Positions 8,133-25,223 of a DNA stretch of 42,641 nucleotides are shown here, piece by piece. Numbering within the stretch: position 1 is the stretch's first letter; the number at the start of each line of letters is the position of its first letter. Source of the stretch: Sphingobium sp. (lineage in GTDB: Bacteria > Pseudomonadota > Alphaproteobacteria > Sphingomonadales > Sphingomonadaceae); the NCBI GenBank assembly GCA_023266635.1, contig JAHFPU010000222.1:1-42641 (forward strand), given 5' to 3'. The notes under the pieces are model-generated. The model saw only the letters and a list, made by a program, of their open reading frames with translations, was not told where the DNA came from and did no database searches. Made by a program: the position numbers and the translations under genes.

Positions 8133-8783
8133 TTAGCCGATACGCGCTAGTATCTCGTCACTTTCCGGGCGATCCAGCCAGTCAGGGCTGACCTGTATCC
8201 ACTCCACGGTGCGACCGGGGCCAATCAGCAGTACGGTCGGCTGCGGCAGTTCCCATGTTCCGGTGCCAGTGACGTCGCCAATCCATCCCGCAGGCGGCGG
8301 TTCGGGCCGATCGTCCGGAACGAAGCTGATGCCAAGCGCGCGCGCAAGGCCGTTGCCGGGATCGCTCGCCACCGTGAAGGCAAGGTTATGGCGATCCTTG
8401 ATATCGCGCAGCTTGTCCGGCGTCTGCGGACTGACAGCGACCAGCCGAATGCTCCTGGCTTTCAGAGCCGGATAGAGCGTGCGATCATAATAAGGCAGCG
8501 CCAGATTGCAGGCAGGACATCCGGCGAAACGGAAGAAGACCAGCAAAGCCCGACTATCTGCAGTCAGGTCATCCAGACTGATGGCATCGCCATCCACATC
8601 CACAAGATCGAACGGCGGCAGGATATCGCCCGACTGAACCGTCGCCGACGGATCAAAGCGATCCGTCAGTGTTCGCCGCTGACCGGCATTTGCCGCAAGC
8701 TGCGCAGGCGACCAGGTCCGCTCCCGTTCTGCCTGAAGCTCCGCATACTGCCCCTTCAAGCTATCAATCGCTACTGTCGCCAT
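8133..8783 (-). CDS. Peroxiredoxin-like (AhpC/TSA, thioredoxin-fold) protein
   Basis: A 216-aa cytoplasmic thioredoxin-fold protein. ATG 8783 is preferred over the listed GTG at 8828 because AGGAGA lies seven bases before it. The redox site is FRFAGCPACN (C89, C92), a CxxC arrangement on the peroxiredoxin scaffold. The downstream block RLVAVSPQTPDKLRDIKDRHNL and the late PTVLLI strand are typical of the AhpC/TSA family. It is the last gene of the long minus-strand sulfur block, 45 bases after a flavin monooxygenase. A role in handling peroxide leaked by that enzyme, or in thiol chemistry of the released sulfur, would fit but is inferred. Confidence 0.8.
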   Translation of the reverse strand: MATVAIDSLKGQYAELQAERERTWSPAQLAANAGQRRTLTDRFDPSATVQSGDILPPFDLVDVDGDAISLDDLTADSRALLVFFRFAGCPACNLALPYYDRTLYPALKARSIRLVAVSPQTPDKLRDIKDRHNLAFTVASDPGNGLARALGISFVPDDRPEPPPAGWIGDVTGTGTWELPQPTVLLIGPGRTVEWIQVSPDWLDRPESDEILARIG

Positions 8784-8828
8784 CGTAATCTCCTTATCGC
8801 GGCCGCCACGAACCTGCGGCACACGCAC

Positions 8829-10178: not shown

Positions 10179-10194
10179 GATAATCCCCAAGCTG

Positions 10195-10986
10195 TCAGGC
10201 GTCGAAGCCGGGCGATTCCCGCCGCGCCTTGCGCAACGCCGCTTCCCAGACGAGGTCATAGTGAGACTTTGCGCCCTCGACCGGCTTGCGCTCACGGGAC
10301 ATCTGGCGACGCACTTCTTCCTGGGCTGCTTCCGGCGCGATCAGCACATTCTCCCGACCCACGCTCAAAGAGCGCACTTGCGCCGTACAGGCCGCTTCAA
10401 GATGATAGATGCCGCTAAACGCTTCGCCCGGTGATGCGCCAAGCGCCAGAGTGCCATGATTGCGCAGCAGCATGACCTTCGTATTGCCAAGATCGGCAAC
10501 CAGCCGCTCCCGCTCATCCAGGTTCAACGCCACGCCTTCATAATCATGATAGGAAAGACCGGGGATCAGGGCGAGCGCGCGCTGATTGAGCGGCAGCAAC
10601 CCTTCGGCATGGGCAGACACCGCCATGCCATCGGCGCTATGGAAATGGGCGATATAATGGGCGTCGTCTCGCGCGCCGTGGATCGCCGAGTGGATCACAT
10701 AGCCGGCATAGTTGATGCCATAGTCGCTCTCACCAATGACATTGCCGTCGAGGTCGACCTTGACCAAACTCGACGCGGTAATCTCGTCGAACATCAGGCC
10801 AAAGGGATTGATCAGGAAATGGTGATCCGGGCCGGGAAGCCGGGCGGAGATATGCGTGTAGAGAAAATCGTCCCAGCGATAGAGAGCCGAAAGGCGATAG
10901 AAGGCCGCCAGATCGACACGCGCTTTCCATTCCGCATCGCTGAAGCCCTGCGGCTCGGTCCTTACATCTTTCAGCACGGTTGCCAT
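10195..10986 (-). CDS. Class II aldolase/adducin-family protein
   Basis: A 263-aa protein with the class II aldolase/adducin fold. The metal-binding histidines are visible as AHFHSADG (H114, H116) and LLRNHGTL (H177). NPFGLMFDEITASSLVKVD matches the N-terminal half of the family. The listed start is GTG 10989; ATG 10986 one codon later is equally placed behind AAAGGAG and is used here. Family members are aldolases, epimerases, dehydratases such as MtnB, or oxygenase-like decarboxylases such as NovR. In this sulfur operon it could process the carbon skeleton left after sulfonate removal, or a sulfur-bearing hydroxyacid. The precise reaction is open. Confidence 0.85.
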   Translation of the reverse strand: MATVLKDVRTEPQGFSDAEWKARVDLAAFYRLSALYRWDDFLYTHISARLPGPDHHFLINPFGLMFDEITASSLVKVDLDGNVIGESDYGINYAGYVIHSAIHGARDDAHYIAHFHSADGMAVSAHAEGLLPLNQRALALIPGLSYHDYEGVALNLDERERLVADLGNTKVMLLRNHGTLALGASPGEAFSGIYHLEAACTAQVRSLSVGRENVLIAPEAAQEEVRRQMSRERKPVEGAKSHYDLVWEAALRKARRESPGFDA

Positions 10987-11068
10987 CACGATACTCCTTT
11001 GCGGGACAGTCTAGGGGTGCCGTAGCACGCCGAATAACGAGGATTTCTAATCAAGCGCCATATTCCGC

Positions 11069-12046
11069 TCATGCGGGAAACACGGTAGCGTCGGCGATAG
11101 CGGCGACATTAACATGCTTGGGCAATTCGCCATCCGCATAAAAGCGATCGACGACGCGCTGGAGCGGCGCAATGACCGCGTTGTCCGGTGGGACCAGCAA
11201 GGCGTTCTGCCGATCCACCATTATCTTGGCGACGCGTAGATCGACCTTGGTCTGGCGCACGAAGATTTCCGCATAGGTATCCGGGTTGGCGAGAGACCAC
11301 CGAGCCGCCGCCTGGAACCGGGCGAGAATATCGCGCAGCGCTGAACGCTTGTCGGGATCGTCCAGCGCTCCCTGCGACGCCGCAAGTAAACTGTAAGGGC
11401 TGTTGATCCCTTCTCCGTCGCGCACCAACCGCGCACCTGCCAGTTCCGCAGCGATCTGATAGGTGCCGAATGTCGCCCAAATGTCGATACGTCCGGCAGC
11501 GAAAGCCGCAGCGGCGTCATTCGGGAGCATGAAGCCGATATCCACCTTCTTGGGATCGACCTTGGCCTCTTTCAGCGCCTCAAGCAGCAGATAATGCGAG
11601 ATGCTGCCGCGTGCGCTGGACACGATGACGCGCTGGCCGGCAAGGTCGGCAACCTTCCGGACCGACGATCCCTGCCGGGCGAGAATGCCGATATTGCGTG
11701 TAGAGAATTTCATGCCCGCAATAATCTTGAGCGGCGCTCCGGCGGCGGCGGCCAGCACCACAGGAAGGTCGCCAGCCGGGGCGGTATCCACAGCACCGGC
11801 ATTAAGCGCCTCGAGCAATGGCGCTGCGCCGACGAAATTCGCCCATTCAATGTCATAGGGCAGGTTCTTCAGGACGCCCGCAGCTTCCGCCTTGGATTGC
11901 AGGAGATGGACCTGATCGCCAAGGACGAGCTTCGTCCGCCCGCCCTTCTTTGCGCCGCAGGCGGCAAGGCCGAACGCAGGGATTGCCAGTGCGGCAATCC
12001 CTGCGAGCACGCCTCGACGGTTAGAAATCAAGTGCGATCCGTCCAT
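11069..12046 (-). CDS. ABC transporter substrate-binding lipoprotein, SsuA/TauA-like (SBP 1)
   Basis: A periplasmic binding protein of the aliphatic sulfonate/nitrate group, 325 aa. The listed ORF reads back into the receptor gene. ATG 12046 is chosen because it opens a signal sequence with a twin arginine (SNRRGVLAG) and lipobox LAAC. The start overlaps the end of the TonB-receptor gene by 26 bases, so translation may be coupled. A TTG at LISNRRG would be an alternative start. Family blocks include VIVSSARGSISHYLLLEAL and AAFAAGRIDIWATFGTYQ, which has the same pattern as the two other binding proteins in this window. No permease is adjacent; it probably uses the SsuBC pair at 18651-20251. 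Confidence 0.88.
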   Translation of the reverse strand: MDGSHLISNRRGVLAGIAALAIPAFGLAACGAKKGGRTKLVLGDQVHLLQSKAEAAGVLKNLPYDIEWANFVGAAPLLEALNAGAVDTAPAGDLPVVLAAAAGAPLKIIAGMKFSTRNIGILARQGSSVRKVADLAGQRVIVSSARGSISHYLLLEALKEAKVDPKKVDIGFMLPNDAAAAFAAGRIDIWATFGTYQIAAELAGARLVRDGEGINSPYSLLAASQGALDDPDKRSALRDILARFQAAARWSLANPDTYAEIFVRQTKVDLRVAKIMVDRQNALLVPPDNAVIAPLQRVVDRFYADGELPKHVNVAAIADATVFPA

Positions 12047-14585
12047 AATAATAACCGCCTGCGGGGTTGAAGGGCGACGGGCCGTAATAGCCCTGCCCGG
12101 TCTGTGGATTGCCCGGCCCGTTGGTTTCGGGCCGCACGTCGAACAGATTGGTCGCGCCGAAGGACACGGTTGCAAAGGACGTGACCTTCGCGCTGATGCT
12201 CGCGTCGGTGATCCATTTGGCACCGAAGTGACGATCGTCACCCGCCGCAGTCCGCTGCGTATATTTCCCGTAGCGGGTCGTGGTGACGGCAAAGCCCAAT
12301 ATGCCCTTGCTCCAGTTCAGTGTGCCGACCAGCTTGGTATGGGGTTGCAACACCTCAAGTTCACCTTGCTTATCACCGCCAAAGAAGACCGATCCCGCAC
12401 CGAGCAGGGAAGTCCCGTTTGCCGCAAACAGTTGCGACGGCGTATCGACAAGATCGGTGATATGGGTCTTGCTGTAGTTGAAAGCGAGCGTACCCCCTAG
12501 CTTGCCGAGCGCGCCGATATTGGTGCTGTAGTCCGCAACCAGATCGAACCCCTTGGTCGTGGTATCGACGGCATTGATGAAATACTCGGCCTGCTCGATG
12601 TCTGACAGACCATTCGCCGTGAGGATCGCCGTGATCCCCGGTCCGAACAGTCGGCCGGTGCGCGCCACACGGTTCTTGATGCGAATATAATAGCCATCGA
12701 GTGTAAGCGAGAAGCCCTGGAAAGGCGTCGCGACGACGCCCAGACCAGCGTTCCAGCTCTTCTCCGCCTTCAGCGGCTTCGCACCGAGCAGTTGTCCGAC
12801 CGTGGAATCCGCCGTCACCAGCTTGGCGACCGTCGGCCGCAACTCCGTAAGGCCCGTCGCCGCGTTGAAGAAGGACGATGTCCGTCCATCGGTCTGGGCA
12901 TAGCCGATCTGCGTCAGCGACGGCGCGCGGAAGCCTGTGCCTACCGTGCCGCGAAACGCAATGGCCGGGCTGACCTCAAAGCGGCTGTTGAGCTTCAGGC
13001 TGACCGGGCTGCCCGATCCGTCGCTATAATGTTCGGCGCGGGCCGCTACGCCGACATACCACTGGTCAAGCGGATACAGGCCGAGGTCGACATAGCCGGC
13101 ATAGACCCGTCGGCTGATGTCCGCCTCGTCGGCGGGCGACAGAACGATAGCGCCCTGCACCACCGGGGAAGCGATGCGACCGACGTTCCAGTCATATTGC
13201 TGGTCGCCGGGCCGGAACACATAGCTGGCCGGCTGATAGGCGAGCGGGTCGCCGGCAAAGGTGCGAAAACGGTCGAGCCGATATTCCGCGCCGATCGACA
13301 CCTGAACCGGACGAGCAAGGCCGATGTCGAACTGGCGTGTCAGGTCGACATTATGCGTCCATTCCCGGAACTCGAAACTGGCCAGGTTCGGCCATTGCGT
13401 CGGGCTAGTGGGGCCAAGCGATGGCCGGATCGACAAGTCAGAATATTGGTGGCTGTAGTTGCGGCCAAACGACGAACTCACGTCGTAATCCCAGCCGATA
13501 AGGGTGCCTTTTAGGCCGCCGACGAACTGGAAGTCATTCTCGTCGATATTGTTGAGGGGGTAATAGCCATCAGGAAAAAGCGCGGTGAAGTTGGCGGTGC
13601 TGTTGGGCCGGCGGAAGTTGTTGCCGATCACCGCCTTGCGTTCGCCATAGGTGCCGAACGAATAGAGGGTGGCGTTATCCGTCACTGGCAGTTCCGCATT
13701 ATAGGTGAGGTTGAACGCCTTGATCTGCGGGTCGCCATTATGCGCGCCGTCCTTGTTCCACGCCGCATTGCGGGCATTGGCGTCGGCGACGTTTGCCAGC
13801 ACCTGGGCGCGGGACAGTCCGCTGCGCGTCACGACCTGATCCACGGTAACGCCTGCGGGCAATCCGTACAGGTTGGTGTCGGTCGCGGGCAGGTTCCACC
13901 ATGCGCCGCCGCGCTTGCGGATATCACCGCTGACAGTCAGGAAACCGCCGTCGCCGATCCGCGTGCCGTAGCGCAGATTGGCCTTCCAGCTATCCGGCTT
14001 GCCATTGGCGCTGTAGAGGGTGCCGTATGTCGCGTCGCCGGAAATCCCCTCTTTCTGGCTCAACTGGATATTGATGACGCCGGCCACGGCGTCGGTGCCA
14101 TATTGGGCGGCCGCGGAATCCTTGAGGACCTCGATCCGGTCGATCGCGCTGGTCGGAATCAGGTCCAGATCAACAGGATTGACACCCGACGTGTCAGTGG
14201 GGCTGTTGTTGAGGAAAGCGCCATTGTGGCGGCGCTTTCCGTTGACCAACACCAATGTGTAAGCGGGGCCAAGGCCGCGATTGGTGACAGGCCGACCGAC
14301 CGAAAAGACCCCGGCATTGGTCGCGCCGAAATTTAGCGAGGGCAGCAATTTGGTCAGCGCTTCGCCGAATTCGGCAGCGCCGGTCCCCTGCAACTTGTCG
14401 GAACCGACGACGTCGATAGGGGCCGGGCTCTCCAGCACGGTGCGCGGCGTGCCGCGTACGCCCGTGACAATGATGGCGCCAGTATCGCCCGCGTCATCAA
14501 TCGGACCCGTTTGGGCATAGGATGACCCTGCCCAGGCGATCGCCAGTGCAAAAGTCGATATCCCTGCAATGCGATGATATTTCAT
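12021..14585 (-). CDS. TonB-dependent outer-membrane receptor
   Basis: An 854-aa outer-membrane active transporter. It has a signal peptide ending at SSYAQ (about residue 25), a TonB-box-like IIVTGVR near 40, and a plug domain with PSLNFG, SVGRPVTNRGLG and IDRIEVLKDSAAAQYGTDAVAGVINI. A long beta-barrel follows, ending in the terminal aromatic residue typical of such proteins (RIALDF). The ATG has GGGGGAA upstream. The gene is embedded between two SsuA-like binding-protein genes on the same strand, so the likely cargo is an organosulfur compound too large or scarce for porins, such as a sulfonate or sulfate ester (inference). TonB-type receptors are known for sulfate-ester use in Pseudomonas. 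A 131-base AT-rich gap with a long palindrome lies upstream and may give it its own promoter. Confidence 0.93.
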   Translation of the reverse strand: MKYHRIAGISTFALAIAWAGSSYAQTGPIDDAGDTGAIIVTGVRGTPRTVLESPAPIDVVGSDKLQGTGAAEFGEALTKLLPSLNFGATNAGVFSVGRPVTNRGLGPAYTLVLVNGKRRHNGAFLNNSPTDTSGVNPVDLDLIPTSAIDRIEVLKDSAAAQYGTDAVAGVINIQLSQKEGISGDATYGTLYSANGKPDSWKANLRYGTRIGDGGFLTVSGDIRKRGGAWWNLPATDTNLYGLPAGVTVDQVVTRSGLSRAQVLANVADANARNAAWNKDGAHNGDPQIKAFNLTYNAELPVTDNATLYSFGTYGERKAVIGNNFRRPNSTANFTALFPDGYYPLNNIDENDFQFVGGLKGTLIGWDYDVSSSFGRNYSHQYSDLSIRPSLGPTSPTQWPNLASFEFREWTHNVDLTRQFDIGLARPVQVSIGAEYRLDRFRTFAGDPLAYQPASYVFRPGDQQYDWNVGRIASPVVQGAIVLSPADEADISRRVYAGYVDLGLYPLDQWYVGVAARAEHYSDGSGSPVSLKLNSRFEVSPAIAFRGTVGTGFRAPSLTQIGYAQTDGRTSSFFNAATGLTELRPTVAKLVTADSTVGQLLGAKPLKAEKSWNAGLGVVATPFQGFSLTLDGYYIRIKNRVARTGRLFGPGITAILTANGLSDIEQAEYFINAVDTTTKGFDLVADYSTNIGALGKLGGTLAFNYSKTHITDLVDTPSQLFAANGTSLLGAGSVFFGGDKQGELEVLQPHTKLVGTLNWSKGILGFAVTTTRYGKYTQRTAAGDDRHFGAKWITDASISAKVTSFATVSFGATNLFDVRPETNGPGNPQTGQGYYGPSPFNPAGGYYYGRIALDF

Positions 14586-14665
14586 GAATATTCCCCCAAT
14601 ATAATTGAAGGCTCTCCTAAGTTTTACATATGTATTGGAATAATGATTTAGGCATATTTCTGATG

Positions 14666-14695
14666 AGAAAATAAAAACTCTAATTTTTATTTTCT
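14666..14695. promoter_or_regulatory. AT-rich perfect palindrome upstream of the TonB receptor
   Basis: AGAAAATAAAAA and TTTTTATTTTCT form a perfect 12-bp inverted repeat around the 6-base centre CTCTAA, with partial pairing continuing outwards. It lies in the 131-base gap between the SBP 2 stop and the receptor ATG, 81 bases upstream of the latter. With almost no G or C it is a poor terminator. An operator or a curved upstream element for a receptor-specific promoter is more likely. Confidence 0.5.
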
Positions 14696-14716
14696 TATCG
14701 AAACATTATCTATCTG

Positions 14717-15670
14717 CTATTCGGAAAATTGCCTGTCGAATGCCTCAGTAACGGAACGCTTGGGATCGATCAGGCCCGCCTTCTGAAAGCGCGCCGTGAT
14801 TTCCTGCTCATGCGCAATGACCTTGCCGTCGATGGGCTGAGAAATGCGATTGTTGCGATCGAAACTGGCGCGGGCGATGTCCAGCGGCAGGCCGGTCTCC
14901 TTCGCCAGAACCTGTGAAAATTCATCCGGATGCGCGCGCGCCCAGGCGACAGCCTTTGCCTCACGGGCAAGGAAGTCCTTCAAAATGGCCTTCTTCGGCG
15001 CAATCGTATCCGCATTGGCGATGTCGATATAGAGCGGAAGCCCGTAATCCTTGGCGTCGACCACAGCGAGCGCGCCTTCCTTGATCGCGACATTGGTATA
15101 GGGCGTCCAAGTCGACCAGGCATCGATCGCCCCGCTATCGAACGCAGCTTTCGCATCGCCGGGCGGAAGGAAGGTCACACGGACCGCACTTGCTGGAATA
15201 TGCGCGCGCTCGAGCGCCTGAAGCAGCAGATGATGACCGATCGAACCGCGCGTCGTGGCGACGGACTTGCCAACAAGGTCCTGCACGCCGCGGATCGGCG
15301 ATCCCTGCTTCACCAGCACTGCCAATGCGTCGGCGGCCTGATGCGCCGGAGCCTGGACCCCGATCGCCTTGACCGGACTGCCGCTCTGATAGGCGAAGAT
15401 GAAAGGCGCGTCAGCAGCGAGACCGAGGTCCGCTGCGCCACCGCCCACCGCCTCAAGCAGGGGCTGCGCCGCCGGGAACTCCGACCATTCGACCGTATAG
15501 GGCGCGCCCTTGAGCGCGCCCGAGGCCAGCATCATCGATTTGACCTGCCCCTTCTGATTGGCGACCCGCAGGACATTTTCAGGCCCGCGAAAGAGCCCCG
15601 AAGCGAATATCCCGATGCCCGTGACGCATACTGCCCCGACAACAATCTTCAGTACCGTCCGTCGCGTCAT
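14717..15670 (-). CDS. ssuA: ABC transporter substrate-binding protein, SsuA-like (SBP 2)
   Basis: A 317-aa sulfonate-type periplasmic binding protein, directly behind ssuD with a TAATG stop-start overlap at 15668-15672. The N-terminus TRRTVLKIVVGAVCV resembles a twin-arginine signal and lacks a convincing lipobox, unlike SBP 1 and SBP 3. Family blocks are VATTRGSIGHHLLLQALE and AAFDSGAIDAWSTWTPY. Of the three binding proteins this one is most tightly coupled to the ssuCB-ssuD gene string, so it is the best candidate for the cognate SsuA. Confidence 0.88.
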   Translation of the reverse strand: MTRRTVLKIVVGAVCVTGIGIFASGLFRGPENVLRVANQKGQVKSMMLASGALKGAPYTVEWSEFPAAQPLLEAVGGGAADLGLAADAPFIFAYQSGSPVKAIGVQAPAHQAADALAVLVKQGSPIRGVQDLVGKSVATTRGSIGHHLLLQALERAHIPASAVRVTFLPPGDAKAAFDSGAIDAWSTWTPYTNVAIKEGALAVVDAKDYGLPLYIDIANADTIAPKKAILKDFLAREAKAVAWARAHPDEFSQVLAKETGLPLDIARASFDRNNRISQPIDGKVIAHEQEITARFQKAGLIDPKRSVTEAFDRQFSE

Positions 15671-16758
15671 TAGCCAGCCAGCGCCAGTTGGGCTTCATCA
15701 CGCGCGGCGACCTTGCTGCGCACGACCGGCAGCAATTCGCGTCCGTACAGGATGCTGTCGCCCAGCGGATCGAAGCCGCGGATCAGGAAATGATCGATGC
15801 CGATATCATAATATTCCAGCATCGCGTCGGCCACCTGCTCGGGCGTGCCAACCAGACCGGTGCTGTTGCCCGCTGCGCCAGTCAGCGCAGCGACGCCGGT
15901 CCACAGGCGCGTATCGCGACGATTGCCCTGCGCGGTGTCGAGCAGACGCAGCGATCCGACATTGGCCGGGCGATGACCCGTGACGGGAAGCCCTGCGGCA
16001 AGACGATTCTCCCGCACCTGCTCCTCAATCTCGTCCGCCTTCTTCCAGGCCGCTTCCTCGGTATCGGCAATCACCGGACGCAAGGACAGCGAGAAGCCGG
16101 GATCACGGCCAAAGCGCGCCGCCGACCGGCGGACCTGGCGAACGGTCTCCCCGACCTGCTCCAGCGTTTCGCCCCACAGGGCATAGACGTCGGCGTGACG
16201 GCCCGCGACCTCGATCGCTTCTTCGGACGATCCGCCGAAGAAGACTGGCAGATTGTCCGGCTTGATGGCGCTGAAGCCTTGCTTCACGTCATAGAAGCGG
16301 CCCTGATGATCGAAGGGCTGCGCCTCGGTCCATTCCTGACGAAGCACGGTCAGATATTCGTCGGTGCGCGCATAGCGCTCAGCCTTGACGCTTTTCGTAT
16401 CACCGTCCCGCGCCATTTCCTCGTCGGCGCCGCCGGTAATGATATGCACGGCGACGCGGCCGCCGGACAGTTGATCAAGCGTTGCGAGCTGGCGCGCAGC
16501 CACCGTCGGCTGGGTGAAACCGGGACGATGCGCTACCAGAAAGCCGAGCTTGCTGGTGAGGGCTGCGGCATGCGCCGCGACGATCTGGCTTTCGGGAGTG
16601 TTTGATCCGAACGGGATCAGCACACGATCAAAGCCACCCTGCTCCTGCGCCTTTGCGGCCGCGTCGACATACTCCTTATCAAGTACCCGGCTGCGAACTG
16701 CCGACTGGGTTTCCGAACCATTGTTGAAGCCGATATAGCCGATGAACTTGACGCTCAT
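15670..16758 (-). CDS. ssuD: FMNH2-dependent alkanesulfonate monooxygenase
   Basis: A 362-aa luciferase-like enzyme that converts alkanesulfonates to an aldehyde plus sulfite using FMNH2 and O2. Sequence blocks characteristic of SsuD are FLVAHRPGFTQPTVAARQLATLDQ, GGRVAVHIITGG, YFGG-like FFGGSSEEAIEVAGRHADVY and ILYGRELLPVVR. The length is near that of the enterobacterial enzyme. ATG 16758 has AGAGGAGA upstream. It lies 28 bases after the rhodanese gene and overlaps ssuA. The reductase partner (SsuE type) is not in the window. Related sulfonate monooxygenases differ in substrate, so the exact sulfonate is not certain. Confidence 0.88.
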   Translation of the reverse strand: MSVKFIGYIGFNNGSETQSAVRSRVLDKEYVDAAAKAQEQGGFDRVLIPFGSNTPESQIVAAHAAALTSKLGFLVAHRPGFTQPTVAARQLATLDQLSGGRVAVHIITGGADEEMARDGDTKSVKAERYARTDEYLTVLRQEWTEAQPFDHQGRFYDVKQGFSAIKPDNLPVFFGGSSEEAIEVAGRHADVYALWGETLEQVGETVRQVRRSAARFGRDPGFSLSLRPVIADTEEAAWKKADEIEEQVRENRLAAGLPVTGHRPANVGSLRLLDTAQGNRRDTRLWTGVAALTGAAGNSTGLVGTPEQVADAMLEYYDIGIDHFLIRGFDPLGDSILYGRELLPVVRSKVAARDEAQLALAG

Positions 16759-16786
16759 GATGCGTCTCCTCTTTAAGAATTACTGA

Positions 16787-18049
16787 TCAGATGACGTAGA
16801 AGCCGTGGGTGCCGTCGCGGGCGAGCTGATCGACCAGCCCATATTCCCAATCGAGATAGGCCTGCATCGCCGCAGCCTTGTTGTCCGTGCCTTCATAGGG
16901 CCGCTTGTACCGCCCCTCGGGACCGCGCGGAGACGGCGCGCCATCGGAGCCGGTTGCAAGCGTCACCTGCGTCCAGTCGGCATCCAGTATCGACACATCC
17001 CAGCCAAGCTGGGCCAGCCAGGATGCCGTCATGTCCGCGCGCGGGCCAAGATCATCGGCAACGACGATCCGTGCGCCGCGCACCGGGGCATAATGGTCGG
17101 TCTCCTGCACCAGCTGCCCGCCCTGCGCATTCCGGAAGCCCGGAATGTGCCCAGCTTCATAAGCCTTTGGCTGGCGCACGTCGTAGAGATACAGGGTGCG
17201 GCCCGTATCGGCCTTCAGATGCTCCAGTTCCGCAAAGCCGATGCGCTTCACGCCGGCGCGATAGGATACGGCGCGCGCATTGCCGCGCGCCTCCTCGACC
17301 CCGGCATTGTCGACTTCCGGCGCGATGCGGGTCTGGCCGGTTTCCAGGTCCTGACCCGCCAGCGTCCAACCGATCGTGCCGTTGCGCAGCGCGTAGACCT
17401 TGTTCGGGATGCCCGCATTGACCAGCGACTGCGTGCCGATGATCGATCGCGTGCGCCCGGCGCAATTGACGATGATCGTGGTGTCCGGATCGGGCGCGAT
17501 CGCTCTGGCGCGGAGCACCAGTTCGGCCCCCGGAACGCTAGTCCCGGTGGGGATGCTCATCGTATTATATTCGTCGGTGCGCCGCGCATCCAATATAGCG
17601 ATGTCGGCTTTCTCGCGGATCAGCGCCTGCACCTCTTCGGCGGGGAGCGAAGGCGTGTGGTTGCGATGCTCGACCAGTTCGCCAAAGGCCTTAGAATAGC
17701 TGTTCACATCCTCGAACAGTTCGAAGCCGGCATCGCGCCATCCGGCAAGGCCGCCCTCCAGTTCGCTGACGTCCGTGAAGCCCAAAGCCAGAAGCCGCAC
17801 GGCCGCGCGCTCCGCAAGCCCTTCGCCATTATCGTACACGACGATCGGTGTCGCAATCCGGGGAATGCGCCAGCGCGCTTCATCGTCGATCCGGCGCAGC
17901 GGAATCTGCGCGGCGAAGAGCGGATGTCCCTGCGCGAATTCATGCTCTTCGCGCACATCGATGATCGCGATCTCGTCGCCGGCAAGCAGGGCCGTGCGGA
18001 TCGCGGCAGGTGTCGTCGTATGCGTGCGGTCGAGGGTATCCGTGATCAT
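16787..18049 (-). CDS. Multi-domain rhodanese sulfurtransferase
   Basis: A 420-aa protein with three rhodanese-like modules at about 10-110, 125-225 and 265-370. Only the second keeps the catalytic cysteine, in VNCAGRTRSI (Cys196). The corresponding loops of modules 1 and 3 read VYDNGEGLAER and VADDLGPRADM without cysteine. Module starts are marked by AIIDVREEHEFAQGH, AILDARRTDEY and YLYDVRQPKAYEAGH. I chose ATG 18049 over the listed 18064 because it makes an ATGA overlap with the thiol dioxygenase gene, the pattern used throughout this operon. It would transfer sulfane sulfur, perhaps to or from products of the dioxygenase. A rhodanese next to a Gln-type thiol dioxygenase is, as I recall, also found in Pseudomonas. 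Confidence 0.88.
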   Translation of the reverse strand: MITDTLDRTHTTTPAAIRTALLAGDEIAIIDVREEHEFAQGHPLFAAQIPLRRIDDEARWRIPRIATPIVVYDNGEGLAERAAVRLLALGFTDVSELEGGLAGWRDAGFELFEDVNSYSKAFGELVEHRNHTPSLPAEEVQALIREKADIAILDARRTDEYNTMSIPTGTSVPGAELVLRARAIAPDPDTTIIVNCAGRTRSIIGTQSLVNAGIPNKVYALRNGTIGWTLAGQDLETGQTRIAPEVDNAGVEEARGNARAVSYRAGVKRIGFAELEHLKADTGRTLYLYDVRQPKAYEAGHIPGFRNAQGGQLVQETDHYAPVRGARIVVADDLGPRADMTASWLAQLGWDVSILDADWTQVTLATGSDGAPSPRGPEGRYKRPYEGTDNKAAAMQAYLDWEYGLVDQLARDGTHGFYVI

Positions 18050-18654
18050 TTGGATCTGTCCCAAAGATTGGGGATGACGCTGTTCGCGTATCCGGAGATG
18101 AAGGGTTTTGGCGTGCCGTCCTCGGCAAAGGTCGCACGTTCGACCGCGCCGATATTGGCCCCATAGACGTGAATGCTGACCGACGGCGCGTCAGCGCGGC
18201 CGTTGGATACGCGGTGGATGTCGCCAGTGCGCGGGCTCAGCGCCTCGACAGCGCCCTCGTGAAGATAATCGGTCTCCGCCGCGACAAGCGCGCCGCCTGC
18301 GCCGCGCGTGAAACGCTCGACCTTCTCCTTGCCGCGCAAAATGCCGACCAGCCCCCACACGCGATGATCATGGATCGGCGTGGACTGGCCGGGCGCCCAG
18401 ACGAAGCTGACGATGCTGAACCGCTCGCGACTGTCGCAATGGAGGAGATATTGCTGGTAACGCTCCGGATTTGGGCGGGCAAACGCCTCGGGCAGCCAGT
18501 CGTCCTTGGCGATCAGCCGGGCGAGCAACGCGCTGCCCGATTCCAGGATCGAGCGCTCGTCGCGGGTGCCCGACAAGAGGTCGGCAAATGCTGTGATGAA
18601 CCCGCGCAGCCTTGATGTGTCGACAGGCCGGTCGATAGCGGTAATCGCGTTCAT
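18046..18654 (-). CDS. Thiol dioxygenase, Gln-type (3-mercaptopropionate dioxygenase-like)
   Basis: A 202-aa cupin that oxidises a small thiol to its sulfinate with non-haem Fe(II) and O2. The 3-His iron site is seen as TPIHDHRVWG (H95, H97) and SIHVYG (H162). In the position that separates cysteine dioxygenase (Arg) from 3-mercaptopropionate dioxygenase (Gln), the sequence reads RYQQYLLHCD, so Gln-type is favoured. The C-terminal block PFISGYANSVIPNLWD also matches, from memory, the Azotobacter/Pseudomonas Gln-type group. ATG 18654 overlaps ssuB (ATGA) and its stop overlaps the rhodanese start (ATGA). It would supply sulfinate that can lose or further oxidise its sulfur. The exact thiol substrate is inferred. 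Confidence 0.85.
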   Translation of the reverse strand: MNAITAIDRPVDTSRLRGFITAFADLLSGTRDERSILESGSALLARLIAKDDWLPEAFARPNPERYQQYLLHCDSRERFSIVSFVWAPGQSTPIHDHRVWGLVGILRGKEKVERFTRGAGGALVAAETDYLHEGAVEALSPRTGDIHRVSNGRADAPSVSIHVYGANIGAVERATFAEDGTPKPFISGYANSVIPNLWDRSK

Positions 18655-19436
18655 TCGGCGGCCTGCACCAGGGACACGACGTCCTCGCCATGATCGCCGC
18701 CAAGATGGGAGAGCAGCTTCTCGCGCAGGCGCGCGGACAAGCCGCCCCGCTGACCGCGCTCCACACCGATCCGCTCCTCGGCGACGATGCGCCCGCCATC
18801 GAGCACCAATATCCGGTCGGCAAGCGCAATAGCTTCCTCGACATCATGCGTGACCATCAGGACCGCCGGGCGATGGACGCGCCAGAGGGCAAGCACCAGA
18901 TCGTGCATGCGGTATCGCGTAAGCGCGTCGAGGGCCGCGAAAGGCTCATCAAGCAGCAGCAGCTCCGGCTCGCGCACCAGCGCCCGCGCGAGCGCCACGC
19001 GCTGCGCTTCGCCGCCCGAAAGCGTCAGCGGCCATGCATCGAGGCGATGGCCGAGGCCGACTTCATGAAGCGCCTTCTCGCTTCGTTCACGCAGGGCGTC
19101 GCCCTTCAGGCCCAGCCCGACATTCTTCCATACCAGCTTCCAGGGGAGCAGCCGCGCGTCCTGAAACACCACAGCACGCGATCCGGGAACCGTCACATCC
19201 TGACCGCTCACCTCATCCAGCCCGGCCAATGTGCGCAGCAGGGTCGTCTTGCCGGAACCGGAACGGCCCAGCAGCGCGACGAATTCGCCCGGCGCGATAT
19301 CCAGGTCCAGACCGTCAATGATAACGTTCGGGCCAAAGCGCCGCGAAAAATTGCGCAGCCGCACAACGGGCGCTTCATCGGGTTCGGAGGTAAAGGTCTT
19401 GACGACCGAGAAGCCAAGGCGTGCATCCATGATCAT
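18651..19436 (-). CDS. ssuB: Aliphatic sulfonate ABC transporter, ATP-binding protein
   Basis: A 261-aa ATPase with Walker A GRSGSGKTT, Q-loop VFQDARLLPW, signature LSGGEAQ, Walker B LLLLDEPFAALD and H-loop VTHDVEEA. The LLPW after the Q-loop is usual in the nitrate/sulfonate/taurine importer subfamily. ATG 19436 overlaps the ssuC stop (ATGA), which supports this start over the ATG two codons later. It is the only importer ATPase in the window, yet three sulfonate-type binding proteins are present. Confidence 0.93.
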   Translation of the reverse strand: MIMDARLGFSVVKTFTSEPDEAPVVRLRNFSRRFGPNVIIDGLDLDIAPGEFVALLGRSGSGKTTLLRTLAGLDEVSGQDVTVPGSRAVVFQDARLLPWKLVWKNVGLGLKGDALRERSEKALHEVGLGHRLDAWPLTLSGGEAQRVALARALVREPELLLLDEPFAALDALTRYRMHDLVLALWRVHRPAVLMVTHDVEEAIALADRILVLDGGRIVAEERIGVERGQRGGLSARLREKLLSHLGGDHGEDVVSLVQAAE

Positions 19437-20251
19437 TGCTCCACTATGCTAGGGCGCCAGACCAGGGCGCGACGTTCAATGGCGCGCACTCCCCAGTCGG
19501 CGAGGAGGCCAAGGATGGCGTAAACCATCAGGCAAACGACGATGATGTCGGTCCGCATGAAATCGCGGGCATTGTTGATGAGGTAACCAAGGCCCGCCGA
19601 GGCGTTGATCTGCTCCGCGACGACAAGCACCAGGATCGATACGGACAGCGCGTAGCGCAGGCCAACGAGCAAAGCCGGGAACGCGGCCGGCAGGACGACA
19701 TGCCAGATTTGCTCTGCCCGGCTAAGGCCAAAGCTGCGCGCAGCTTCCAGCAAACGCGGATCGACGCTGCGAATGCCGCTGAACAGATTGAGATATACCG
19801 GGAAGATAGTGCCGAATGCGATCAGGGCTATCTTCGGCGTCTCACCAATCCCGAACCAGACGATGAAGAGAGGCGTCAGGGCGAGCGCCGGGATGGTGCG
19901 CTTGATCTGCATGAGGGGGTCGACGATCAGTTCGCCGGAGCGCGACAGGCCCGACACCAGGCCAAGGATCGTGCCGAGCCCGACACCGATGAACAGGCCG
20001 ACCGCCACACGCCCGAAGGACACAAGAAGATTTGACGGAAGTTCGCCCGAGATGATCATCTCGAAAAGGGCGCCCATGACTGCGGAAGGCGCAGCAAGGG
20101 TGCGTTCCGGGATAACCCCAACCCGCGATCCCAGCTCCCAAAGGAGCAGTAGCAGGACCGGAGACAGCCATCTGCCACCGAAGGCAGACAGCGAAAATGG
20201 CTTACGCGCCGTTTGGCCCGCCTTCTGTGCGGAAATGGATAATGCCGTCAT
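19433..20251 (-). CDS. ssuC: Aliphatic sulfonate ABC transporter, permease
   Basis: A 272-aa inner-membrane permease with about six helices and the cytoplasmic EAA loop EAARSFGLSRAEQIWHVVLPAAFPALLVG that docks the ATPase. IKRTIPALALTPLFIVWFGIGE is characteristic of SsuC/TauC permeases. It is the first gene of the long minus-strand block, facing the LysR gene across 284 bases. AAAAGG precedes the ATG. Confidence 0.93.
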   Translation of the reverse strand: MTALSISAQKAGQTARKPFSLSAFGGRWLSPVLLLLLWELGSRVGVIPERTLAAPSAVMGALFEMIISGELPSNLLVSFGRVAVGLFIGVGLGTILGLVSGLSRSGELIVDPLMQIKRTIPALALTPLFIVWFGIGETPKIALIAFGTIFPVYLNLFSGIRSVDPRLLEAARSFGLSRAEQIWHVVLPAAFPALLVGLRYALSVSILVLVVAEQINASAGLGYLINNARDFMRTDIIVVCLMVYAILGLLADWGVRAIERRALVWRPSIVEQ

Positions 20252-20535
20252 GCCGATTGCCTTTTGGTGTCGGCAATAAGCTCAACATGCTTTCTCTACT
20301 GCTTCAATTGAGTTTTCCCCCGCGCACATATTTGGGATTCTCATAAGCAACGCTTCGTCGCTCGCGAAGCCCGGTTTATCAAGAGTTTCAAGGTTTTTTG
20401 TCGTCCAAGCCATGTCCGGATAGCTTTTCCTTGCCCTTTGCAATCTCTACTATTTTGATTGATATATAAGAATGCGCCATAGGCCATCCGTTGTTTCCGA
20501 CAGCGGATCGGCATGTCTATGGTCAAGGGGCGCAC
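20252..20535. promoter_or_regulatory. Divergent control region between ssuC and the LysR gene
   Basis: A 284-base non-coding region between divergent start codons. It holds three ATAAG elements (20276, 20343, 20466) and a 6-bp GCTTCG/CGAAGC inverted repeat (20352-20357 with 20365-20370) flanked by ATAAG and TTTAT, a layout that could serve a LysR-type tetramer. A plausible plus-strand promoter for the LysR gene is TTGCAA (20438-20443) with GATATA 17 bases on. The boxes are read by eye and are not verified. Confidence 0.4.
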
Positions 20536-21372
20536 ATGCCGGTTAATCTTCCTACGAATCTCCTGCGCAGCTTCGTCGCGATCGTCGAGACGGGCTCCAT
20601 GCTGAATGCGTCCGAACAGGTGTTCGTGACGCAATCCGCGCTCAGTCTTCAGATCAAGCGGCTGGAAGAGCTTGTCCAGCAGACCCTGTTCCTTCGTGAG
20701 GGCCGTCGACTTGCTCTGACACGCGCGGGTACCGTTCTCCTCGATTATGCGCGCCGCGTTCTGGTGCTGCATGATGAGGCCGTGGCTGCGGTCAGCGCCG
20801 GCCGTTTCGTCGGCCCGGCGCGCATCGGCATGGTGCAGGACTTCGCCGATACTTTGCTGAGCGGCCTCTTGTCCCGCTTTGCCGAACTGCATCCCGATGC
20901 ACAGATCTATGCGCGCGTTGCCGGCACGGCTGAATTGCAGGCGCTGCTCGACCGACGCGAACTGGACATTCTCCTGGGATTTGCAGCGCCCAATGATGCA
21001 AGCGCCGTGAGCGTCGCGCCAATGAGTTGGTATGGGGAGTCGACGCTGGTTGATCGCCCCGTCATATCGCTGGCGGTGCTTGAAGAGCCGTGCCGTTTCC
21101 GCGAGGCGGCGATACGCGGCCTTGAGGATGCAGGTCTCAGCTGGCGTATCGCAGTCGAGACGCCGAATCTCGCGACGCTGAAAGCCGCCGTCTCGGCCGG
21201 GCTGGGCATCACCTGCCGCACCCGCCTTTTCCTTGGCGACGATTCTACTTTGGATCATGAGCGCCTGCCGACGCTGCCGAATGTCGCCGCGATCCTGCGC
21301 ACCAGCGATCAGTTGGACGATGCCGGGTCGCGGCTCGCGGAACTGGCGCGCGAAACCGTCCTGGCCTTGTGA
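20536..21372 (+). CDS. LysR-family transcriptional regulator (LrhA-like)
   Basis: A 278-aa regulator with the N-terminal winged helix-turn-helix (NLLRSFVAIVETGSMLNASEQVFVTQSALSLQIKRLEE) and a periplasmic-binding-like effector domain from about residue 90. The form of the helix-turn-helix and of RIGMVQDFADTLLSGLL resembles the LrhA subgroup more than CysB or Cbl. ATG 20536 is chosen over the listed 20491 because AAGGGG precedes it and the LysR homology starts immediately. Being divergent from ssuC, it is the obvious candidate regulator of the sulfur operon. It is convergent with the hydroxyacid dehydrogenase gene, with 7 bases between stops. Confidence 0.9.
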   Translation: MPVNLPTNLLRSFVAIVETGSMLNASEQVFVTQSALSLQIKRLEELVQQTLFLREGRRLALTRAGTVLLDYARRVLVLHDEAVAAVSAGRFVGPARIGMVQDFADTLLSGLLSRFAELHPDAQIYARVAGTAELQALLDRRELDILLGFAAPNDASAVSVAPMSWYGESTLVDRPVISLAVLEEPCRFREAAIRGLEDAGLSWRIAVETPNLATLKAAVSAGLGITCRTRLFLGDDSTLDHERLPTLPNVAAILRTSDQLDDAGSRLAELARETVLAL

Positions 21373-21379
21373 CCGACTC

Positions 21380-22324
21380 TTAGTAGCCGCGCACCGGATC
21401 AACGATGTCGCTGGGGTCTTCTCCTCGCGTGAAGCGGGACAGGTCGTCCGTCACCTTGTCCAGCAGGCGATGACGCACCAGCGTATAATTGCTGGAGATA
21501 TGGGGCGTCAGGCGGACCTTGGGATGAGTATATAAGGGGTGACCTTCCGGCAGAGGTTCCGGCTCCGTGACATCCAGCGTCGCAAAGCCAAGCCGCCCAC
21601 TGTCCAGGGCACGGATCAGCGCCTCCTGATCGAGCACCGAACCGCGCGCCACATTGATGAGATGCGCGTCCGGCTTTGCATGCGACAGCAAAGCGTCATC
21701 GATCAGCAGGCGCGTCTGCGGTGTCGCAGGCAGGGCAACGACAATATGATCGGACTCGGCCATCAGTTCGCGGATGTCCGACACCAGCGATATGCCCGGA
21801 ATATGGCTCACTGTTGAAGAACGCCTGACACCCACGACCTGTGCGCCGAGGGCGATGGCTCGGCGACCGACGGCGTTACCGATCGCGCCGAGACCCAGGA
21901 TGCCGACGGTCGTGCCGGACACCCGACCAAGCGGCTTTTGCACCCATTGCTCACGCGACCGGGCGGTTACCGCCTCAAGATTCTTCGCATGGGCATAGAT
22001 GGCCGCGATGACATAGTCGGCAATCTCTTCCGACGCCACGCCTCGCCCGCACGTCACCAGCGGCGCTTCGAGCAGCCAGGGCGGGTAGAAATCTATCCCC
22101 GCCGAGGCGCTGTAAACCCATTTGAGCCGACCGGGCCAAGCCCCGGGGCGTCCTTGCGGCGACTGCCGCCAGGCCAGGGAAGGACGAATAAGCAGAACGT
22201 CCGCTTCACTCGCTGCGGCCCAGGGCTCTTCTTCCGAAACCGAAATCAGCCTTGGTCGAGATGGATGCTCTTCAAGGCTGCGGTTGAAATCGGGTTCCAT
22301 CTGGCTGGCAATGACAAGCGACAT
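21380..22324 (-). CDS. D-2-hydroxyacid dehydrogenase family protein
   Basis: A 314-aa NAD(P)-dependent enzyme interconverting a 2-oxoacid and a D-2-hydroxyacid. The Rossmann motif GILGLGAIG is at about 141-149. The catalytic Arg is in NVARGSVLD (R227), the Glu in DVTEPEPLP (254 or 256) and the His in TPHISSN (H275). ATG 22324 is used because the listed start lies inside the preceding gene; the resulting gap to that gene's stop is five bases. As last gene of the SfnB-like block it may handle the carbon acid left after desulfurization, or a sulfur-containing hydroxyacid (inference). Confidence 0.88.
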   Translation of the reverse strand: MSLVIASQMEPDFNRSLEEHPSRPRLISVSEEEPWAAASEADVLLIRPSLAWRQSPQGRPGAWPGRLKWVYSASAGIDFYPPWLLEAPLVTCGRGVASEEIADYVIAAIYAHAKNLEAVTARSREQWVQKPLGRVSGTTVGILGLGAIGNAVGRRAIALGAQVVGVRRSSTVSHIPGISLVSDIRELMAESDHIVVALPATPQTRLLIDDALLSHAKPDAHLINVARGSVLDQEALIRALDSGRLGFATLDVTEPEPLPEGHPLYTHPKVRLTPHISSNYTLVRHRLLDKVTDDLSRFTRGEDPSDIVDPVRGY

Positions 22325-22329
22325 AGAGG

Positions 22330-23508
22330 CTAATTCCCCAGGCCCGCACGACCGGCCGCAACCAGGATCGTGTCCGTCTGTGGCGAATGAATGCGGCTGC
22401 ACAGCACATCCCGATAATGCCGCTCTAGCGGATTTTTCCTGCTGATTCCGGGATTACCGGTCAACTCCAGGCCGATTTCCACGGCCCGAATGGCGTTCGC
22501 CGTCACGATATATTTGATATTATTGACCTCGACGCCGCCCGGTGGCGTACCCGCATCGCTGCGCGCCGCCGCCGTATCGATAAGGGTGCGGTTCACCTGC
22601 AGCAGCGCCTCAATCTCTCCGAACTTCTCCTGCACGCGCGGCAGCGTCGCGAGGGAAGAACCCAGATTCGTCGGGACACGATCGTTAAGGTAGAAGCGCA
22701 GCCAGTCGCGCGCCGCGCGGGCCACCCCATTATAGATTGTCGAGATCGCCAAGGCGTTCCAGGTCGCCTGGGATGGATCGCCAGCGACCGACCACTCCTC
22801 CAGCTTGCGGACATCGACGGCATGGTCGAACGGCACCGGCGTATCGGCAAAATGCACGGCATGGCTGACGGTCGCCCGCATGCCCAGATGATCCCACTCC
22901 GGCTCGATCCGGATATTCGGACTGTCAGCACGCACCAGGAAATTGCCGACGCGCGGGCTATCCTCGTCCGTTTTCGCCCATACGGCGAACCAGTCGAGGC
23001 CGGTGGACCCGGTGGAATAGATTTTCGTGCCCTCGATCAGCCAGCCGTCGGCCGTCCGACGGGCAATCGTGGCAGGCAAGCCACCGCGAACCGGCGTTCC
23101 CAACTCCGGCTCGACACGAAGCCCGCCGATCAGACCCTTGCCTGCCACGGCGTCTCGCGCAATGCGCTCGTAAATGCCTTTGGGCCAGTTTCGGGTCTTC
23201 GCCGGCGCCGCATGATAGGCATAGGTCATGAAAAGGATCAGCGCGGTGGAGGGTTCGCCCTTCGCGACCGCGCCGAGCACGCGCAGTGCCTGCGACAGGG
23301 ACGCGCCTCCGCCACCATATTCCGGCGCGACAGTCAGGCCAATCAGCCCTTCGCGCGCGAGCAGATCGAAATTGGCGCGCGGGAATTCGGCGGTTCGGTC
23401 ATAATGCTCCGCCGTTTCGCCCAGCAGGCGGCTGATATGATCGAGTTGATCGTTATGAGAAATGGAAACCCCTCCGGTCACGGAAGCCTCGGCGAATTGC
23501 GTTGCCAT
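22330..23508 (-). CDS. Acyl-CoA dehydrogenase-fold flavoprotein, SfnB/DszC-like
   Basis: A 392-aa flavoprotein with the acyl-CoA dehydrogenase fold: N-terminal helical domain with LAREGLIGLTVAPEYGGGGAS, middle beta domain with WLIEGTKIYSTGSTGLDWFAVWA and DHLGMRATVSHAVHF, and a C-terminal helical domain. In sulfur-scavenging clusters such proteins (SfnB, DszC) act as FMNH2-dependent monooxygenases on organosulfur compounds rather than on acyl-CoAs. The context, four bases after a sulfonate-type binding protein gene, favours that reading. ATG 23508 is used. Substrate unknown. Confidence 0.85.
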   Translation of the reverse strand: MATQFAEASVTGGVSISHNDQLDHISRLLGETAEHYDRTAEFPRANFDLLAREGLIGLTVAPEYGGGGASLSQALRVLGAVAKGEPSTALILFMTYAYHAAPAKTRNWPKGIYERIARDAVAGKGLIGGLRVEPELGTPVRGGLPATIARRTADGWLIEGTKIYSTGSTGLDWFAVWAKTDEDSPRVGNFLVRADSPNIRIEPEWDHLGMRATVSHAVHFADTPVPFDHAVDVRKLEEWSVAGDPSQATWNALAISTIYNGVARAARDWLRFYLNDRVPTNLGSSLATLPRVQEKFGEIEALLQVNRTLIDTAAARSDAGTPPGGVEVNNIKYIVTANAIRAVEIGLELTGNPGISRKNPLERHYRDVLCSRIHSPQTDTILVAAGRAGLGN

Positions 23509-23512
23509 GCTG

Positions 23513-24490
23513 TCAGACCTCCTTGAGGATTATATCGTTGAAACGGTTGTCCCACAGGGGGCGCACATCGACCGGCTTGGGCAGAAGGCCGGCCTTTTGA
23601 AACACGTTGGCGACCTCTTGCTGCGACGCGATCGTCTCTTTCGTCACCGGCTGAAGCGAATAGGGCGCGGTGCTGCGACGGAACTGATCGACGACATATT
23701 CCTTGGGCACGCCAATGTCGGTCGCAATGATCCCGGCCCACTGATCGCGATTTTCGACGGCCCAGGCAAACCCCTTCTTCAGGAGCGTAAGATACTCGCC
23801 GATGATCTTCACCCTCGCCGGATCGGCGAGAGCATCGACATGGGCGGCAACCAGATAATTGCCTGACAATATGCCGTTCGCCGTGCGCAGGATGCGCGCG
23901 CCCTCGGTCGCGATGGCCCGTTGTATGGGAAAGCCGTAGATCGCCCATGCATCGAGTGCGCCCTGGGAGAAAGCAGCCGCGCCGTCCGAAACGCCCATGG
24001 CGACCGGGACGATATCGTCCCAGGTCAAACCGACCTCTTCCAGCATCCGGATAAGGAAATATTGCGCCGTCGTCGCGCGGACATAGCCCACGCGCTTGCC
24101 CTTGAGATCGGCGATGGACCGAGCCGGCGAACCCTTCGGCACCAGCACGACCTGGTTATTCACGTCGCCATGCAGCACTGCGATCTGCTTGAAGCTCTGG
24201 ATCGTGGACGCGGCCGCGAAAATCGGCGGTATCTCGCTCATCCCGCCATAGTCGAGCGATCCGCCGTTCAACGCCTCAACGACCAGATGTCCGGAAGCAA
24301 ACTCGCTATATTGGACCTCGAAGCCCTCCGGCGCGAGGTGCGCGGACTTCAACAGCAGGCGGGTGTCGCCCTCGCCCTTACCCGTTACGGAAGCGCGCAG
24401 GCGGGGTATGGCCTTCTTTTTCGAACCACAGCCGGCCAGGACCAGCACACCAGCCGCGGCCGAACCCAAGAAAACACGTCGGGAAAACAT
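23513..24490 (-). CDS. ABC transporter substrate-binding lipoprotein, SsuA-like (SBP 3)
   Basis: A 325-aa periplasmic binding protein. ATG 24490 opens a signal sequence with the Tat-like SRRVFLGSAAAG and lipobox LAGC; the listed start 24634 is upstream in another gene's reading space. The body has VGYVRATTAQYFLIRMLEEVG and AAFSQGALDAWAIYGFPIQ, the same pattern as SBP 1 and SBP 2. It starts at a TGATG overlap with the small ORF upstream and is followed by the SfnB-like gene. No permease lies in this block, so it probably shares SsuBC. Confidence 0.88.
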   Translation of the reverse strand: MFSRRVFLGSAAAGVLVLAGCGSKKKAIPRLRASVTGKGEGDTRLLLKSAHLAPEGFEVQYSEFASGHLVVEALNGGSLDYGGMSEIPPIFAAASTIQSFKQIAVLHGDVNNQVVLVPKGSPARSIADLKGKRVGYVRATTAQYFLIRMLEEVGLTWDDIVPVAMGVSDGAAAFSQGALDAWAIYGFPIQRAIATEGARILRTANGILSGNYLVAAHVDALADPARVKIIGEYLTLLKKGFAWAVENRDQWAGIIATDIGVPKEYVVDQFRRSTAPYSLQPVTKETIASQQEVANVFQKAGLLPKPVDVRPLWDNRFNDIILKEV

Positions 24491-24639
24491 CAACGCGCGC
24501 CAGCCACTTCGCGAGACGTCGTGGCCTCGGACTCCGGCCGATACTCGAACAGGATAACGTCGGGGTCGCGCAGAAGCTCTTTCTTCAAGCCGGCCAACGT
24601 CCTCTTCAGACGATCCCCACCGCGTTTCAACCAAGCCAT
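24490..24639 (-). CDS. Small ORF (49 aa) leading the SBP 3 operon; not in the ORF track
   Basis: On the minus strand ATG 24639 opens 49 codons ending in TGA at 24490-24492, overlapping the SBP 3 start as TGATG. AGGAAAGG lies 8-15 bases before the ATG. The product begins MAWLKRGGDRLKRTLAGLKKE, continues with DPDVILFEYRPES and is rich in Lys, Arg and Glu, with no signal or membrane segment. Codon third positions are mostly G or C like the neighbours. I do not recognise the family. It could be a real small protein or a leader ORF that couples translation of SBP 3. Confidence 0.55.
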   Translation of the reverse strand: MAWLKRGGDRLKRTLAGLKKELLRDPDVILFEYRPESEATTSREVAGAR

Positions 24640-25223
24640 AGCAAGCCCTTTCCTGACCTCAGGAGGATTTATCTATTCATTTGGTCGAGAATTGTCTGTC
24701 AAGCTTTGCTGGCAGACCCATTAGAATAACTTGAACCGCTCGAGACCCGCCCGCGATGCGGGCCGCTATGTCCCTCGGCTGTTATGAGTATCGCTCAACA
24801 TATGAGCCATTTCCGAAAGACATAGAGCAATCACAATTAGATCGATCGCGAGAATTTGTTACGCCCTGTTGTCTGCATGACGCCAAGAGCGGCGTTGCGT
24901 GATCGTCCTTCTTGTTTTGAGGCGCTAATCGATGATCAGGATAGCACGACCAAAGGGGTGGGGCATGGGCGGACGGCCCATGATATTCAACGCCCGGGTC
25001 AATGCCAGTGACGTGGAAATCATCGTACCAAAGGGCATGTGGATGAGAGCGCTGCGGGACAGCGGTCAGGACAGTGAAGATACTGGCATCGGTCTTGAGC
25101 CGAGGGCTGCATACCGCCTGATCGAAGCAGCCGCATCGCACCAGCTTCATTGCGGAAACATCCCGTCCGGATCGACACTCGCGCTTCGATGAAGATTATG
25201 CAGACCTGCGCAACAAAGGCGAC
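24640..25223. other. Gene-poor interval with candidate promoter for the SBP 3 operon
   Basis: Nearest the operon is a perfect minus-strand -35 hexamer TTGACA (24697-24702); no equally good -10 stands at 16-18 bases. A short CCCGC/GCGGG hairpin lies near 24750-24770. The rest carries two overlapping listed ORFs (24782-25150 minus, 24932-25192 plus). Neither has a recognisable domain, so I do not call them as genes. Confidence 0.4.

Follow-up and report, generated by a model that had tools for sequence, protein, structure and literature searches.

A conserved small-protein gene heads a sulfonate-scavenging operon in Sphingobium

Introduction

Pseudomonas corrugata 28 encodes a small protein of unknown function, OscA, in an oscA-sbp unit that is tied to sulfur starvation (PMC2996968). 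The counterpart of oscA-sbp in P. aeruginosa is PA0284-PA0283 (PMC8466066). Here we describe a gene from Sphingobium with the same layout: the gene for a 49-residue small protein (which we call the sORF) opens a unit that also encodes a sulfur-compound binding protein (SBP). The OscA unit is linked to the sulfur-starvation response; for the sORF unit, this link would follow from the genes that it contains. The window that we analyzed is a stretch of 42,641 nucleotides, and the features discussed are listed in Table 1.

Other known systems resemble this locus in part. Amino-acid-sensing leader peptides (of the trpL or ilv type) are also short and first in their operons, but the sORF has no run of regulated codons, and no attenuator hairpin was seen. 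The SsuEADCB/SfnB-type operons for scavenging sulfonates and sulfones have the same content as the operon around the sORF, but none of their named subunits equals the small protein. (To our knowledge, SsuF-type helpers also differ in kind from it.) The operon itself is of a known kind, and what is gained is a real, unnamed family of small proteins with a defined genetic context. We view this finding as solid but modest.

Table 1. Features of the sORF locus, with positions in the window
Feature	Positions	Strand	Evidence
sORF (SBP-type), 49-aa small protein gene	24490-24639	-	in-frame conservation in 19/19 Sphingobium genomes with SBP; synonymous-change test
Shine-Dalgarno-like AGGAAAGGG of sORF	24646-24654	-	read in sequence; duplex energy
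36-bp promoter-like element GCTTG-N8-WTSTC-N11-TAGATAA	24669-24704	-	pattern search; single match in window
Dyad TCAAG...CTTGA (TCAAGTTATTCTAATGGGTCTGCCAGCAAAGCTTGA), likely activator site adjoining -35	24699-24734	-	upstream alignment of SBP-type and nitroreductase-type sORFs
SsuA-family sulfonate binding protein (SBP)	23513-24490	-	TIGR01728, 166.6 bits (cut-off 163.5); junction
Acyl-CoA-dehydrogenase-family flavoenzyme (SfnB / sulfinopropanoyl-CoA desulfinase-like), next in unit	22330-23508	-	PF00441, PF02770
D-2-hydroxyacid dehydrogenase family gene, third gene of unit	21380-22402	-	PF02826

Results and discussion

The sORF is a genuine gene

The original prediction was of a 49-aa ORF that begins with an ATG behind a good ribosome site and ends in a TGATG junction with the SBP. 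We found the ORF at exactly that place, on the minus strand. Its ATG (24639-24637) is preceded, 6 nucleotides upstream, by the Shine-Dalgarno-like sequence AGGAAAGGG (duplex energy -4.9 kcal/mol), and its TGA stop codon (24492-24490) forms the TGATG with the ATG of the SBP (24490-24488). The encoded protein is MAWLKRGGDRLKRTLAGLKKELLRDPDVILFEYRPESEATTSREVAGAR. The reading frame had been predicted correctly, but the end of the protein had been placed after FEYRPESEATTSREV, which omits the last four residues (AGAR).

A full-length orthologue of the SBP (74-80% identity) is present in 19 Sphingobium genomes, including the window's own. In all 19 of them, the sORF lies directly upstream of the SBP, in frame and with its ATG kept. 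The check that had been proposed along with the original prediction was for loss of the frame or the start in relatives that keep the binding protein ("SBP 3"); within Sphingobium, the frame, the start, and the junction are intact in 19 of 19 genomes. The frame is free of stop codons in every one of these orthologues, whereas the two remaining frames of this strand are open in just 1/19 and 3/19.

A profile search also found a diverged second branch of the family. These proteins have 51-61 amino acids with the core ALLREPxVVLxER, and they are encoded directly upstream of a nitroreductase-family gene (PF00881), with a gap in place of the overlap. (We will refer to the two branches as SBP-type and nitroreductase-type sORFs.) A paralogue of the small protein heads this second unit, in which it is not coupled to the next gene.

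Across 13 disjoint pairs of sORFs, of both the SBP type and the nitroreductase type, synonymous changes make up 131 of the 205 single-nucleotide differences between codons (64%, versus 29% expected; p = 5e-25). In the shifted frames, just 18% and 13% are synonymous. (The 13 pairs are partly dependent on the tree, but we judge the effect to be far larger than that.) In most of the closest pairs, pN/pS is 0.25-0.45. The part of the SBP-type protein that is kept is the core (R/Q)EFLRDPxVILFER, while both ends drift, and the orthologues are just 31-55% identical to the window's ORF, as compared to 74-80% for the SBP. So, the sORF is evolving quickly around a fixed core. It is almost certainly a genuine gene rather than a chance reading frame.

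The family appears to be specific to Sphingobium

When 60 relatives were searched in translation, many Sphingobium genomes proved to have homologues of the sORF in frame. In a profile search, 54 of 94 Sphingobium genomes had at least one match to the family, and many had two, although about 5 of the 54 matched weakly and are probably spurious. An order-wide search (301 genomes from 80 genera) did not find a convincing member outside of Sphingobium. Scanning genome contigs with the sORF alone as the query found nothing; a tighter alignment as the query found 8 loci, 6 of them in records that carry the name Sphingobium. The family had no match in plasmid records, and neither the sORF alone nor the sORF with its relatives had a convincing match in Pfam, NCBIfam, or PHROG. 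We did not find a description of the family in the open-licence literature.

The SBP does occur without the sORF. Three orthologues of the SBP from outside Sphingobium (66-73% identity) lack it, one of them having no more than a possible remnant of 20 aa, and a more distant relative from outside the genus (46% identity) lacks it as well. The possible remnant (locus L135) is a mini-ORF that overlaps the SBP in a similar manner. It may or may not be a relic of the sORF, as 71 and 28 of 2,000 shuffled sequences scored as high. Since the SBP persists in other genera with no sORF, the SBP as such does not require the sORF. The family consists of previously unnamed small proteins that are a lineage-specific accessory of Sphingobium and not a core partner of the SBP. 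Within the genus, one genome (G015) also has a second, degenerate copy of the SBP (L118; 64% identity), with its frame broken near the end and without an sORF.

Probable translational coupling to the binding protein

In all 19 orthologues, the start of the SBP lies between -11 and +1 nucleotides from the stop of the sORF. The ribosome site of the sORF is also the better one (median Shine-Dalgarno duplex energies of -6.0 kcal/mol for the sORF and -4.3 kcal/mol for the SBP across the 19 orthologues), although the difference is moderate and the ranges overlap between genomes. Given the overlapping junction and the better ribosome site, the sORF most likely feeds translation of the SBP, and we consider that such coupling probably operates in vivo. 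The geometry of the junction supports an earlier suggestion that the sORF is a leader that tunes translation.

Could this be its only role? The sORF might be a pure cis-acting leader that loads ribosomes onto the SBP by termination and reinitiation, with the product being discarded. The overlap of stop and start in 19 of 19 genomes and the weaker Shine-Dalgarno of the SBP would fit, as would the 20-aa overlapping mini-ORF upstream of one SBP from outside the genus. Other translationally coupled short upstream ORFs likewise stop on the next start and have the better ribosome site. But in the sORF, unlike in plain coupled ORFs of this kind, the residues are conserved: purifying selection acts on the amino-acid core and not on the junction alone. 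Also, the nitroreductase-type paralogues are uncoupled from the next gene. Coupling therefore cannot be the sole role of the sORF, and we consider the purely cis-acting explanation to be unlikely.

Another possibility for a short ORF that is first in a sulfur-related operon is that ribosome stalling on it reads the supply of cysteine or methionine, as in an attenuator. The codon content largely refutes this: the 19 orthologues together have 1 cysteine and 4 internal methionines in 863 residues, and the window's sORF has neither. Furthermore, no terminator or antiterminator was seen between leader and gene: the sORF overlaps the SBP gene, and there is no terminator-like hairpin on the minus strand in 24400-24900. 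An attenuator is thus highly improbable.

A shared promoter-like element

By aligning upstream regions, we derived a pattern with fixed spacing for a promoter-like element (Table 1). In the window, the element includes TTGACA (24697-24702), a 17-nucleotide spacer, and TGAATA (24674-24679), so transcription would begin shortly upstream of the sORF. This conserved element directly upstream of the sORF also supports the earlier suggestion that the sORF is first in its operon. (A simple sigma-70 scan did not detect the promoter of the sORF, which we attribute to a poor -10.) The TCAAG..CTTGA dyad overlaps the -35 and is likely a site for an activator.

With one mismatch allowed, the pattern has 42 matches in 61 genomes, and reversed-pattern controls have none. 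The element is in 25 of the 37 Sphingobium genomes that were searched (the window's own included), and two other genomes of the order have one match each. These two matches, in other genera, have one mismatch and look unrelated. We cut out 30 of the 42 sites as loci and read them; some of the remaining sites were read in other steps of the analysis. Besides sites before SBP-type sORFs, we found sites before nitroreductase-type sORFs; in that class, all 16 of the elements that were read (16/16) are followed by a paralogue with the related core and then, without overlap, by the nitroreductase gene. In two cases (one of them in the window's own genome, L088) the element is upstream of an aminotransferase-like gene, and in one case (L084) it is upstream of an exported-protein-like gene. 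The element is specific, and the genes behind it form a candidate sulfur regulon. Sphingobium is a genus that is studied for its breakdown of pollutants and organosulfur compounds.

At three of these sites (L088, 1501-1840; L073, 1501-1840; and L084, minus strand), the element is followed by a conserved leader, AGCTTGCTCCGCGT..AAYGGCTAAAGCG..CGCCAGG. This leader may encode a leader peptide (QLAPR..LKR...); it has no match in Rfam and no unusual folding. At L088 and L073, the leader is followed by another small ORF, which ends in FWxRLGL, and then by the aminotransferase-like gene.

The operon is likely induced by sulfur starvation

The sORF lies in a cluster with relatives of SsuA, SsuB, and SsuC, a luciferase-like monooxygenase, cysteine-dioxygenase-like and rhodanese genes, and a flavoenzyme similar to SfnB or the desulfinase. 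(The flavoenzyme scores under the cut-offs of NF042439 and TIGR04022.) The start of the SBP overlaps the stop of the sORF, and the SBP has a Tat/lipoprotein-like signal (SRRVFLG...LAGC). The proteins of the cluster (8133-24639) contain 0-2.3% cysteine plus methionine, while most of the other ORFs in the window contain 2.2-5% (one has 1.7%). The window's sORF lacks cysteine altogether, and its only methionine is the start. A low sulfur content of the proteins is typical of genes for sulfur starvation, so induction by sulfur starvation fits both the operon and the sORF. Judging from the gene content and the low content of cysteine and methionine, it is quite likely that the sORF and the SBP belong to a sulfur-starvation unit.

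The cluster also encodes a TonB-dependent receptor of 854 amino acids (12021-14585, minus strand). It is free of cysteine and, apart from the start, of methionine, which is an extreme case of sulfur sparing. On the other side of the sORF, a FAD/NAD(P)-binding gene (PF13454; 25224-26576, minus strand) is a divergent neighbor of the sORF and SBP in many relatives. In the window, however, it shares their strand, which shows that the locus has been rearranged.

A possible role in trans

A protein with a function of its own is supported by the selection on its residues and by the paralogue that heads an unrelated gene. Based on these sequence comparisons, we lean slightly towards an additional function in trans for the product of the sORF. 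Its AlphaFold model has a helix at residues 3-22 only, with low confidence (pLDDT of 59).

Earlier guesses as to this function were a small regulator or a chaperone-like helper, and we found no direct support for either. In particular, the tight linkage to an SBP with a Tat-like lipoprotein signal could point to a dedicated chaperone or assembly factor for the SBP. But the protein encoded next to the paralogue is a cytosolic nitroreductase, and in other genera the SBP occurs with no sORF, which makes an SBP-specific chaperone improbable.

We also considered mimicry of a segment of ABC ATPases, the helix-Walker-B stretch (RVALARALVREPELLLLDE in SsuB), by which the small protein would modulate the ATPase of the transporter, or descent from a fragment of such a gene. 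Almost all PDB matches of a family profile are ABC ATPases, at this segment, although the single-domain i-Evalues are about 2 to 4. With the nitroreductase-type model, the window's SsuB scores 14 bits, which none of 3,000 shuffled sequences reached. But the match spans only 18 residues, and with the SBP-type model the score of SsuB is -2 bits, within the range of shuffled sequences (565 of 3,000 scored as high). Also, in ABC ATPases, the strand of the Walker-B segment is buried in the core. We rejected the resemblance for the SBP-type protein, and for the nitroreductase type it is a weak lead. Convergence on a helix-RxP-strand arrangement is the simpler reading of the likeness in the core, and we adopt it; there is very little chance that mimicry or descent from an ABC ATPase accounts for the sORF.

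We hold with moderate confidence to a model in which the small-protein gene is first in a sulfonate-scavenging operon, is coupled to the SBP, and has a product that acts in trans. The promoter-like element (the TCAAG..CTTGA dyad, TTGACA, 17 nucleotides, and the -10) would drive a transcript with the sORF as its first product. This product would be a basic protein of 45-50 amino acids, with an amphipathic N-terminal helix, then (R/Q)EFLRDPxVILFER, and then a variable tail. Ribosomes that finish the sORF would stop atop the start of the SBP, with its weaker Shine-Dalgarno, and would thereby be passed on to the SBP. Since selection acts on the residues, and since an uncoupled nitroreductase unit behind the same element has a paralogue as its first gene, the protein would most likely act in trans, by analogy to OscA, as a small accessory protein for sulfur starvation. 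More tentatively, the sORF and the element might form a first-gene cassette that is placed before different scavenging genes, with the product acting in trans and its translation setting the output of the next gene; we think this is possible but doubt it somewhat.

The sORF and OscA are not homologous

OscA presumably belongs to DUF2292 (PF10055). Neither the sORF nor any of the 34 members of its family matched PF10055 at E <= 1, and hhalign of the sORF family against DUF2292 from Sphingobium gave a probability of 0.2%. The strand-turn-strand core of OscA and DUF2292 (LRFGSVxxxVHDGRVVQI) is absent from the 34-member alignment. Based on the profile search and hhalign, we rejected homology between the sORF and OscA/DUF2292. 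The sORF is a second, unrelated case of the layout in which the small protein is first and the sulfur binding protein is second. With two unrelated cases, the question of whether small proteins of this kind have a role in trans or work by translational coupling alone becomes open to testing.

Nearly all Sphingobium genomes have a separate DUF2292 gene, upstream of a TonB-receptor-like gene. This single, YezD-like gene (L051-L060, around 1501) lies behind a conserved dyad of its own, GGGGCGCGACAAG..CTTG.GCGCCCC, and it is preceded by a TTTTGTCTA..GTTGAGATAA leader that resembles the element of the sORF.
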